This document shows, one piece after another, positions 23,583 through 60,577 of a stretch of 64,000 bases of DNA (within the stretch, counting starts at the first letter, position 1; the number at the start of each line of letters is the position of its first letter). Under the pieces are notes generated by a model. The model worked only from the letters and a program-made list of their open reading frames with translations. It was not told the DNA's origin and ran no database searches. The stretch comes from Bacillota bacterium (GTDB lineage Bacteria; Bacillota; Sulfobacillia; Symbiobacteriales; ZC4RG38), in the NCBI GenBank assembly GCA_021890795.1, contig JAKKUO010000005.1, positions 1 through 64,000 of the forward strand, given 5' to 3'. The position numbers were made by a program, and so were the translations under genes.

Positions 23583-24101
23583 ATGAAGATGGCCCGTCAG
23601 CGGGTAGAAAGGTTGCTCACCCAGATGGATGCGGTCTGGGGCCGGGAGGGATGGGTGGTGGGGGCGGAGATCGCCCTGGCCGGGCTCGGGGCAACCCAGG
23701 CGGCTTGGGTGCCCGGACCCGGCCGGCACACCATCTGGCAGACGGTGAGCCACCTGGCCTTCTGGAAGGAGGTTTGCGCGGGCGCGCTGACCGGGGCCCC
23801 CCGGCGGCCGGGGCCCATCGTCAACTCCGAGACCTTCGGGCTGCCGGGGGACCCGGCTGACGAGGCGGCCTGGCAGGGAGCCCTGGCCCGGTTGCGGGCG
23901 GCCCACGGCGCCCTCCGGGCCGCGGTGGCCAGACTTACCGACGCAGATCGAGGCCGCCGCCGGCAAGGCCGGGCCGTAGCACCCCGGGGCTCCCGCCAGG
24001 GGACGGGTCACGAAGCCATCGGCACCGGCGGCGTGGTGGGCTGGGAAGGGGAGGGCTCCCCGGGCCGGCCGGAATCCTCGGCCTCCTGGGCCTTCAGGTA
24101 G
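23583..24101 (+). CDS. DinB-like protein, probably truncated at the C-terminus
   Basis: 172 residues from the ATG at 23583. Residues 1-120 fit a DinB/YfiT four-helix bundle: the first metal-type histidine in TIWQTVSHLAFWKEV and the second-helix pattern ARLRAAHGALRAAVARLTDAD. The domain should continue with a third helix carrying HDAYHAGQ-like metal histidines, but after TDAD (near 23945) the sequence becomes arginine/glycine-rich and unlike the family. The frame then runs 94 bases into the opposite-strand ATP-grasp gene. Either a frameshift or a rearrangement has removed the last quarter. The true coding end may be near 23945-24000. It follows the YerA-like gene closely. Confidence 0.6.
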   Translation: MKMARQRVERLLTQMDAVWGREGWVVGAEIALAGLGATQAAWVPGPGRHTIWQTVSHLAFWKEVCAGALTGAPRRPGPIVNSETFGLPGDPADEAAWQGALARLRAAHGALRAAVARLTDADRGRRRQGRAVAPRGSRQGTGHEAIGTGGVVGWEGEGSPGRPESSASWAFR

Positions 24102-24844
24102 GCCAGGATCGCCGGCCCGACGGCGATCCCCAGTTCCCTGAGGCCCAGGTTGCCGAACTTGACGTTGAACTCCAGGATGTAGGGCTCGCCGTCTACCACC
24201 GCTACGTCGAACCCCGCGTGGTCGATGCCCAGGGTCCGGGCCACGTGCTCCACCAGCTCCAGGGCGGCCCGGGGGGCCGGGCTGTGGTCGATGCGGCCCC
24301 CCCGGGCCACGTTGTTGTGGAAGGCCCCCGGCCGTCCGACCCGCCAGTAGTGGGCCAGGATCTGGTCCCCCACCCAGACCACCCGGAGATCCCGGTCGAT
24401 GGGCAGGTACTCCTGGACGTAGAGGACGTCGGTCGCGGCGCAGTAGGCCTGCCAATCCGCCATGTTCTCGATCCGGAAAACCCCCTGCCCCATGCTGGCC
24501 CGGGGGATCTTGGCGACGAAGGGGAAGGAGAAGTGGGCCAGAGCCTCCTCCTGCCCCGCGGGACTGTTGGGCAGAATGAGGGTGTCGGGGACCGCCTCGG
24601 GGGCGACGGCCCAGAGGGCCCGGGTCTGCTCCACCTTGTCCCGGCCCAGGTGGTAGGAGGCCGGGGAGGGGAAGATCCGCTTGTGCCAGCCGTAGACCAG
24701 GAAGTTGACCTGCCATTCCTCGGGAAAGAGGAGCCAGTCGGCGGCCAGCACGTCCGCCCGGTACCGGAAGACCAACTCCGGCTTGATGTAGCGGGCCCCG
24801 GGGATGGCCACCGCCCGCAGGGGGTCAAAGGTGATGAGTCGCAT
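24008..24844 (-). CDS. ATP-grasp ligase, RimK-like
   Basis: 278 residues. The ATP-grasp fold is visible: the first lysine region FVAKIPRASMGQGV with its glycine-rich loop near residues 130-145, VQEYLPIDRDLRVVWVGD near 165, and the metal-binding end GFDVAVVDGEPYILEFNVKFG near 240. This layout resembles RimK/LysX-type carboxylate-amine ligases, which add an amino acid to a carboxylate; substrate and product are unknown. The last ~20 residues (serine/proline-rich) may be a tail added by the junction with the DinB-like gene. No obvious partner gene is adjacent. A weak G-rich site precedes the ATG. Confidence 0.8.
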   Translation of the reverse strand: MRLITFDPLRAVAIPGARYIKPELVFRYRADVLAADWLLFPEEWQVNFLVYGWHKRIFPSPASYHLGRDKVEQTRALWAVAPEAVPDTLILPNSPAGQEEALAHFSFPFVAKIPRASMGQGVFRIENMADWQAYCAATDVLYVQEYLPIDRDLRVVWVGDQILAHYWRVGRPGAFHNNVARGGRIDHSPAPRAALELVEHVARTLGIDHAGFDVAVVDGEPYILEFNVKFGNLGLRELGIAVGPAILAYLKAQEAEDSGRPGEPSPSQPTTPPVPMAS

Positions 24845-25028: not shown

Positions 25029-25066
25029 TTAGCACTCTTGACAGTTGAGTGCTAACACCCTAGGAT
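25029..25066 (+). promoter_or_regulatory. CIRCE (HrcA operator) overlapping a promoter
   Basis: TTAGCACTC (25029-25037), nine bases, then GAGTGCTAA (25047-25055): an exact match to the CIRCE consensus, the operator of the heat-shock repressor HrcA. Inside the spacer sits TTGACA (25038-25043), and 17 bases later TAGGAT (25061-25066), so the operator covers the -35 box. The next gene is the FmdB-like zinc ribbon gene at 25164, not groES/groEL or hrcA. Confidence 0.93.
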
Positions 25067-25163
25067 TGCGTATTAGAGACCTTGGGGGCGGGGACCGGGG
25101 GCAGGGCCGGATCCCTCGCCTCACCGAGCTTTTTGCGGCGGAAACCAGGGAGGTTGCAGGACC

Positions 25164-25418
25164 GTGCCGATCTACGAATTCCGGTGCAACGCCTGTGATC
25201 ACAAGTTTGAGGAGCTTTGCCCCTTTGACGACGACGGCTCCCAGCGCAAGTGCCCCAAGTGCGGCCATGTGGGGGCCCGCCGGCTGGTCTCCGTCTTTGC
25301 CGCCCACGGCCTGGAGAACGGCCACCACGGGGTGGGCAAGCGCTGGGGGAACAACTCGGGTTCTGGCAGCGGCGACAAGGGCAGCGGCTCGGATTCCGGC
25401 AGCAAGTCCGAGGACTAA
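25164..25418 (+). CDS. FmdB-type zinc ribbon protein
   Basis: 84 residues from a GTG with GGGAGG about 11 bases upstream. The first 40 residues are the FmdB zinc ribbon: [16 protein letters not shown] with C-x2-C near residues 8-11 and CPKCGH with C-x2-C near 30-33. The C-terminal half is a low-complexity glycine/serine/aspartate tail. Such proteins are widespread and poorly characterised; some were named for a formamidase-linked regulator, which does not define a function here. The gene lies 98 bases after a CIRCE-controlled promoter, which suggests heat-shock induction and a role in protein or RNA quality control (inference). Confidence 0.85.
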
Positions 25419-25535: not shown

Positions 25536-25571
25536 GCCGACCGCCCGGCCCTACCAGGGCCGGGCGGTTTC
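25536..25571 (+). terminator. Terminator after the FmdB-type gene
   Basis: CCGCCCGGCCC and GGGCCGGGCGG with a TACCA loop, followed by TTTCTG. Good stem and a short T run. Confidence 0.75.
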
Positions 25572-25813: not shown

Positions 25814-26881
25814 GTGAGCTACCGCATCGCCGTGCTGCCCGGAGACGGCATCGGCCCCGAGGTGACCCGGGAGGCGGTGAAGGTGCTGGAGGCCGTGGGC
25901 CGGCGCTTCGGCATCCCCCTGGAGTTTGAATGGGGGCTGGTAGGGGGCGCCGCTTACGAGGCCACCGGCCATCCCCTGCCCCCGGAGACCCTGGAACTGG
26001 CCCGGCGGGCCGACGCGATCCTCTTCGGCGCGGTGGGGGGCGACCAGTGGGACCAGCTCCCCCTCGAACTCCGGCCGGAGCAGGGCATCCTGGGGCTCCG
26101 GAAAGAGCTGGATCTCTACGCCAACCTCCGGCCGGTGATCACGTACAAGCCCCTTCTCCACACCTCGCCCCTGAGGCCCGAGATCCTCGGGGACGGGGTG
26201 GACATCCTCATCGTCCGGGAGCTGACCGGCGGCCTCTACTTTGGCCAGCCCAAGGGGCAGGTGGCCCCGGGGCTGACGGTGGACACCTGCGCCTACACCG
26301 ACGACCAGATCCGCCGGGTACTCCATGTGGCCTTCCAAGCCGCCCGGAAGCGCCGCCGGCAGGTGGTCTCCGCGGACAAGGCCAACGTCATGGCCACCTC
26401 CCGGCGCTGGCGGGAGCTGGCGGAGGAGGTGGCCCGGGAGTACCCGGACGTGGAGCTCCGGCACATGTACGCGGACAACTGCGCCATGCAGCTGATCCGC
26501 AACCCCCGGCAGTTCGACGTGATCGTCACCGAGAACACCTTCGGCGACATCCTGACCGACGAGGGGGCGACCCTGGCCGGCTCCATTGGCCTGCTCCCCT
26601 CCGCGAGCCTCGGCAGCGGCCGGGCGGCGCTCTACGAGCCGATCCACGGCAGCGCCCCGGACATCGCCGGCAAGGGGATCGCCAACCCCCTGGCGGCGAT
26701 CCTCTGCGGGGCGATGCTGCTCCGGTACTCCCTGGACCGGCCCGATGCCGCGGCCGCGGTGGAGGCGGCGGTCCAGGAGGTCCTCGCCCGGGGGCTCCGG
26801 ACCCCGGACCTCCGGCAGGAGGGCTGCCGGATCGTCGGCACCCAGGAGATGGGCGATGCGGTGGTGGCCGCCCTGGGCTAG
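25814..26881 (+). CDS. leuB: 3-isopropylmalate dehydrogenase
   Basis: 355 residues from a GTG with GGGAGG 7 bases upstream. Oxidatively decarboxylates 3-isopropylmalate in leucine synthesis with NAD+. The start [10 protein letters not shown], the leucine-type [11 protein letters not shown] near residue 140, YADNCAMQL near 217 and the NAD loop [15 protein letters not shown] near 278 separate it from isocitrate dehydrogenase. No leuA, leuC or leuD is nearby, so the gene stands alone, which is unusual for leucine genes. Confidence 0.94.
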
Positions 26882-59671: not shown

Positions 59672-60577
59672 ATGGCCGACTACCTGGTGCGGGCTCTCAG
59701 CGAGGACGGCCTGATTCGCCTTTTGGCCGCGGTGACCACGGAAACGGTGGAGGAGGCCCGGCGGCGGCACGACACGTGGCCCGTGGCCACCGCCGCCCTC
59801 GGCCGGGCGCTGACGGCTGCCGCCTTGCTGGGGGCGAACCTCAAGGGACGGGAGACCCTGGTCCTGCGAATCGCCGGCGGCGGTCCCCTCGGCACCATCA
59901 CCGCGGAGACCGATGGGGAGGGGAACCTCCGGGGTTATGTCCACCATCCCCACGTGGACCTGCCCCTCAGCGCCCAGGGCAAGCTGGATGTGGGCGCTGC
60001 GGTGGGCCGGCAGGGGCAGCTGGTGGTGATCCGGGACATGGGGCTGAAGGAACCCTACGTCGGCTCTGCGCCCCTGGTCAGCGGCGAGATCGCGGAGGAC
60101 CTGACCCGGTACCTCTGGACCTCGGAGCAGACCCCTTCGGCGGTGGCCCTGGGGGTGCTGGTGGCCCCGGACGGCCGGGTGCAGGCCGCGGGCGGCTACC
60201 TGCTCCAGCTGATGCCGGCTACCCGGGAGGAGCACCGGGAACAGCTTGAGGAGAACATCCGGAACCTCGGCGCCGTGAGCGCCGCCATCGACGCGGGGAT
60301 GAGCCCGGAGGAGATGGCGGGGCGGGTGCTCGCCGGTTTCGCTTACCGGATCCTGGACAAGCAGCCCCTCCGGTTCCGGTGCCGGTGCAGCCGGGAGCGG
60401 GTCGCCGGGGTGCTGGTCAGCCTCGGGGCGGACGAACTCCGGCGGATGGAGCAGGAGGACGGCGGCGCCGAGGTCACCTGCGAGTTTTGCGGCGAGCGTT
60501 ACCACTTCACCGGGGCTGAACTCGCGGCCCTCCGGGAGGAGGCGGCCCAGCCGCCGAAGCCGGCCCGGGAGGAGTAA
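59672..60577 (+). CDS. hslO: Redox-regulated chaperone Hsp33
   Basis: 301 residues; the ATG at 59672 follows GAGGAG by about 10 bases. A chaperone that becomes active on oxidation and heat. The N-terminal part shows ADYLVRALSEDGLIRLLAAVTTE and TGLLGA-like AALLGANLKGRETL; the C-terminal redox switch has the zinc cysteines C-x-C in RCRCS near residue 236 and C-x2-C in CEFCGERY near 270. Both pairs are intact. Confidence 0.95.
   Translation: MADYLVRALSEDGLIRLLAAVTTETVEEARRRHDTWPVATAALGRALTAAALLGANLKGRETLVLRIAGGGPLGTITAETDGEGNLRGYVHHPHVDLPLSAQGKLDVGAAVGRQGQLVVIRDMGLKEPYVGSAPLVSGEIAEDLTRYLWTSEQTPSAVALGVLVAPDGRVQAAGGYLLQLMPATREEHREQLEENIRNLGAVSAAIDAGMSPEEMAGRVLAGFAYRILDKQPLRFRCRCSRERVAGVLVSLGADELRRMEQEDGGAEVTCEFCGERYHFTGAELAALREEAAQPPKPAREE

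Follow-up and report, generated by a model that had tools for sequence, protein, structure and literature searches.

Within the order Symbiobacteriales, an operator of the heat-shock repressor HrcA lies in front of a gene for a small FmdB-type zinc ribbon protein, which raises the question which gene the operator controls and what the protein contributes to the response. The operator has the same consensus as the sites of the HrcA/CIRCE regulon (groESL, hrcA-grpE-dnaK), namely, TTAGCACTC-N9-GAGTGCTAA. In contrast to that regulon, the target here is a zinc ribbon gene and not a classical chaperone gene. The stretch of 64,000 nucleotides that was analysed is called the window in the following. 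It contains these features around the operator:

24008-24844, minus strand: RimK-like ATP-grasp gene, a divergent neighbour that is not kept beside CIRCE in relatives
25029-25055, plus strand: CIRCE operator (predicted HrcA site), palindromic, perfect 9-9-9 consensus with 0 mismatches
25038-25043, plus strand: -35 hexamer TTGACA, within the CIRCE spacer
25061-25066, plus strand: -10 hexamer TAGGAT, 17-nt spacing, 10 of 12 consensus matches over both hexamers
25148-25153, plus strand: Shine-Dalgarno-like GGGAGG, 10 nt before the GTG, read directly from the sequence
25164-25418, plus strand: fmdB-like gene, 84 amino acids, GTG start, first gene downstream of CIRCE
25539-25569, plus strand: intrinsic terminator-like hairpin of 14 pairs, between fmdB and leuB
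25814-26881, plus strand: leuB (3-isopropylmalate dehydrogenase), a neighbour not considered part of the unit

The operator reads TTAGCACTC-TTGACAGTT-GAGTGCTAA and its spacer contains the -35 box of a promoter that fits the sigma-70 type well. The preliminary description of an exact CIRCE covering a consensus -35 box was therefore correct, including the position. Between 24800 and 25900, this was the sole promoter-like site on both strands and no minus-strand promoter was found. G006, a genome of the same family, carries TTGACG at the equivalent position of its CIRCE spacer. In dinucleotide shuffles of the window, 0 CIRCE matches are expected even when 3 mismatches are allowed, and exact sites are expected by chance approx. 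4e-6 times per 2.8 Mb at 70% GC. The distance between CIRCE and the GTG of fmdB is 108 nt. This start codon is backed by a six-way alignment of MPIYEF at ATG or GTG together with GGGAGG. The hairpin behind the gene suggests a monocistronic fmdB transcript.

The conservation of this arrangement was studied in the eight genomes of the order in the collection, six of which (G000, G001 and G003-G006) have an fmdB gene of the same type, marked by the motif AAHGLENGH. A scan for CIRCE before fmdB-like genes of related genomes had been proposed as a check, and the operator was found in all six, 67-108 nt upstream of the gene. It had no mismatch in G000, G003, G004 and G005, one in G006 and two in G001. 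In every relative with this type of fmdB, the gene was the first one after CIRCE, and the pairing spans two families. The promoter has shifted between them: in the family of the window, the CIRCE spacer contains the -35 box, whereas in the other family this box follows just downstream of CIRCE. Among these loci, identity was 93-96% in the arms compared to 24% in the spacer and 33-35% in the flanks, which argues that the arms are under selection. Three kinds of gene neighbourhoods were observed, namely, adenine deaminase/leuB, a pyrE-like phosphoribosyltransferase upstream and a metallo-beta-lactamase gene upstream. The first one is that of the window and is common only to G006. Operator and fmdB have thus stayed together in changing surroundings, and this is strong evidence for fmdB as the target.

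The two order genomes without this fmdB are G002, a 77%-complete draft, and G007, a draft of 630 contigs from the same genus as the window. The gene is either dispensable in G007 or missing from its fragmented draft. A search for leuB gave no match in G002 and only weak, distant ones in G007. The shorter fmdB paralogues in G003-G006 carry no CIRCE, and none was seen near the gene at the other fmdB loci examined from the class. The flanks of the 80 best-scoring relatives kept from the GTDB scan were also free of CIRCE at up to 4 mismatches. A strict phylum-wide DNA pattern (half CIRCE, gap and fmdB start) matched only G005 among 398 genomes; it was too strict to inform, as it missed the window itself, where its GG-spacing constraint fails at the 108-nt gap.

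These data bear on the readings in which the operator has nothing to do with fmdB. A palindrome arisen by chance, or left behind as a functionless relic, has a negligible probability: approx. 2e-10 exact sites are expected per 150 nt, and it is refuted by the conservation of the arms over two families and three gene neighbourhoods in which spacer and flanks diverged. It is very improbable, too, that CIRCE mainly serves a neighbouring gene. The site is palindromic and only 184 nt away from the start of the ATP-grasp gene, and leuB is located on the same strand as the CIRCE promoter; still, the missing minus-strand promoter and the terminator-like hairpin between fmdB and leuB speak against both genes. 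Moreover, the ATP-grasp gene is absent from the CIRCE sites of the relatives and the adenine deaminase/leuB pair recurs only in G006, whereas fmdB always follows first. Both neighbours were consequently rejected as targets. The conservation of the site, together with what is established about CIRCE, makes it almost certain that HrcA controls fmdB.

The genome also encodes the repressor. Its hrcA gene (L007) matched PF01628 with 217 bits and has a CIRCE of its own with one mismatch. Genome-wide, five CIRCE-like sites were detected, at fmdB, groESL, grpE, hrcA and a glycosyltransferase gene. With hrcA present and CIRCE at groESL, grpE and hrcA, the gene content indicates a functional HrcA system to which the fmdB site belongs. 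Membership of fmdB in the HrcA-controlled response, as suggested beforehand, is hence strongly supported by the hrcA gene and by the operator kept in six of six genomes. Within the δ-proteobacteria, predicted CIRCE targets comprise only groESL, hrcA-grpE-dnaKJ and rpoH (PMC545781).

The fifth site is an exact CIRCE directly before a family-4/group-1 glycosyltransferase gene (L006:2026-2052, C31:13025-13051). It also occurs in G007 (L026:978-1004) and thus in both genomes of the genus, where it is another non-chaperone target. On its other side, it is flanked by a divergent gene for an FAD-dependent oxidoreductase-like protein. In G005, a sugar nucleotidyltransferase gene has a CIRCE with one mismatch in the region of its start (L041:2542-2568, C1:1248241-1248267), perhaps a second envelope or sugar link of HrcA in the order.

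The 84-residue protein was correctly described as an FmdB-type zinc ribbon, since it exceeded the curated cut-offs of both Pfam Zn_ribbon_8 (PF09723; 57.4 bits, cut-off 34.4) and NCBIfam TIGR02605 FmdB (63.6 bits, cut-off 31.3). The zinc ribbon occupies residues 1-45 with the pattern C8-x2-C11-N18-C30-x2-C33. In the AlphaFold model, block mean pLDDT values were 86-92 over residues 1-40 and 45-55 from residue 41 onward. Nearly all residues between 46 and 84 had values below 50-55 and the only secondary structure there is the end of a helix at residue 46. This part is predicted to be a disordered tail of Gly, Ser, Asp and Lys. The tails of the order relatives are hydrophilic, rich in Ser, Gly, Lys and Glu and variable in sequence. 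The relative in G001 (L042:1055-1333), whose CIRCE has two mismatches, stands apart: its tail is rich in Cys and His (CCGGACAGHSH), whereas those of the others are rich in Ser and Lys. A conserved segment of 15 residues with the core AAHGLENGH lies between ribbon and tail. As a DNA pattern, this core was found only in the same six genomes among 151 class genomes sampled. A PDB sequence search with the protein gave no credible relative.

Compared to typical FmdB zinc ribbons of the Bacillota (e.g. the Desulfotomaculum relatives L051-L088), the protein shares the MPIYEFRC...CPxCG ribbon with 42-57% identity in that region. It differs in the segment behind, as these proteins are without AAHGLENGH and most of those retrieved end in a Cys-rich CSxCSSxxCxxC tail. 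No CIRCE was present within the flanks fetched for them.

A closer functional precedent is Rv0991c (Ruc) of M. tuberculosis, which is repressed by HrcA along with the groES/groEL genes and induced by heat (PMC7448276). Ruc binds a single zinc, its C-terminus is disordered, and oxidation activates it; in its oxidised form it prevents aggregation, and it promotes refolding by DnaKJE (PMC7448276). Its N-terminal residues, taken from published primers with four positions as X, scored 50.4 bits against PF09723 (cut-off 34.4). None of the papers searched named FmdB together with CIRCE or with HrcA; the link surfaced under the name Rv0991c/Ruc. The claim of the preliminary description that the link is not standard was thus half right, given that an HrcA-repressed FmdB-type zinc ribbon has been published and that CIRCE stands at several actinobacterial fmdB genes. 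On the side of the Actinobacteriota (the phylum of the actinomycete G449), 5 out of 27 sampled fmdB loci (L178, L181, L185, L187 and L196) were preceded by a CIRCE at a distance of 23-81 nt, with 1-3 mismatches, which extends the HrcA-fmdB link beyond M. tuberculosis.

The protein of the window and Ruc have the PF09723 family, two CxxC pairs in the zinc ribbon and a hydrophilic disordered tail in common. Both are encoded by a small separate gene in the regulon of groESL with an HrcA operator overlapping the promoter. The N-terminal ribbon of the Ruc family (∼50 amino acids, CxxC-N17-CxxC) is present here, although one residue longer, as 18 residues separate the pairs against 17 in Ruc, and the variable hydrophilic C-terminus without secondary structure corresponds to the predicted tail (residues 46-84). 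The differences concern the phylum and the segment after the ribbon, where AAHGLENGH replaces the FKGSGFY-like segment of many sampled actinobacterial members; the protein is therefore not a close orthologue of Ruc-type proteins. The FKGSGFY-like segment as a mark of Ruc was derived from these sampled members and is not called defining in the paper. Furthermore, Rv0991c heads an operon with Rv0990c and has a SigH promoter, in contrast to the apparently monocistronic fmdB with its sigma-70-type promoter. The arrangement looks like a sequence-divergent relative of the known HrcA-Ruc arrangement.

The genome of the window differs in one more respect, as it also encodes Hsp33:

59678-60511, plus strand: full-length Hsp33 gene, within the window

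Ruc and Hsp33 are anticorrelated in some lineages (PMC7448276). Hsp33 was present in all eight order genomes, which counts against the Ruc analogy, and its absence was thus rejected as the reason for a Ruc-like protein.

In unstressed cells, HrcA would occupy CIRCE at 25029-25055 and keep RNA polymerase from the -35/-10 promoter, which overlaps this site. Heat or unfolded proteins would draw GroEL away from HrcA, and repression would be lifted; both the repression and its release follow established knowledge of the system. fmdB would then be transcribed alongside groESL, grpE-dnaK and hrcA. By family, architecture and regulation, its product is probably an accessory chaperone similar to Ruc. 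As a holdase, it would keep unfolded proteins soluble and hand its clients to DnaK/DnaJ/GrpE, as modelled on Ruc. The holdase may be activated by oxidation of the zinc-binding cysteines. This redox switching is less certain, since the cysteines in common with Ruc are only the four that bind zinc and the genome also encodes Hsp33. The whole account, in which HrcA controls a holdase or DnaK helper that resembles Ruc but differs in the middle segment, is given a probability of roughly 0.6.

The operator may be a true HrcA site for fmdB and the protein nevertheless act elsewhere in the stress response, for instance as a zinc ribbon bound to ribosomes or RNA or by regulating transcription or metabolism. 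FmdB carries an older annotation as a regulatory family, the functions of zinc ribbons are very diverse (PMC7448276), and the conserved AAHGLENGH, unlike the segment of Ruc, could have a partner of its own. Such a role is nonetheless rather unlikely, as Ruc, the only experimentally characterised family member found, is a chaperone with the same regulation and its tail is matched by the low-complexity hydrophilic tail here. Concerning the suggested action with chaperones or stalled ribosomes, the chaperone part is supported by the analogy with Ruc and nothing in the sequence points to ribosomes, stalled or otherwise. More tentatively, the proteins marked by AAHGLENGH might be an order-specific sub-family of HrcA-controlled zinc ribbons with a partner or client specificity unlike that of Ruc, working alongside Hsp33 and not replacing it. 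The segment could, for example, dock directly to DnaK, GroEL or the ribosome.

HrcA control of FmdB/Ruc zinc ribbons is thus no mycobacterial oddity, as it is found in two phyla whose proteins belong to different sub-types. This recurrence strengthens the case that the large and mostly unstudied FmdB/Ruc family belongs to proteostasis, and the locus lends itself to a clear-cut test in bacteria that include many thermophiles and have Hsp33 as well.
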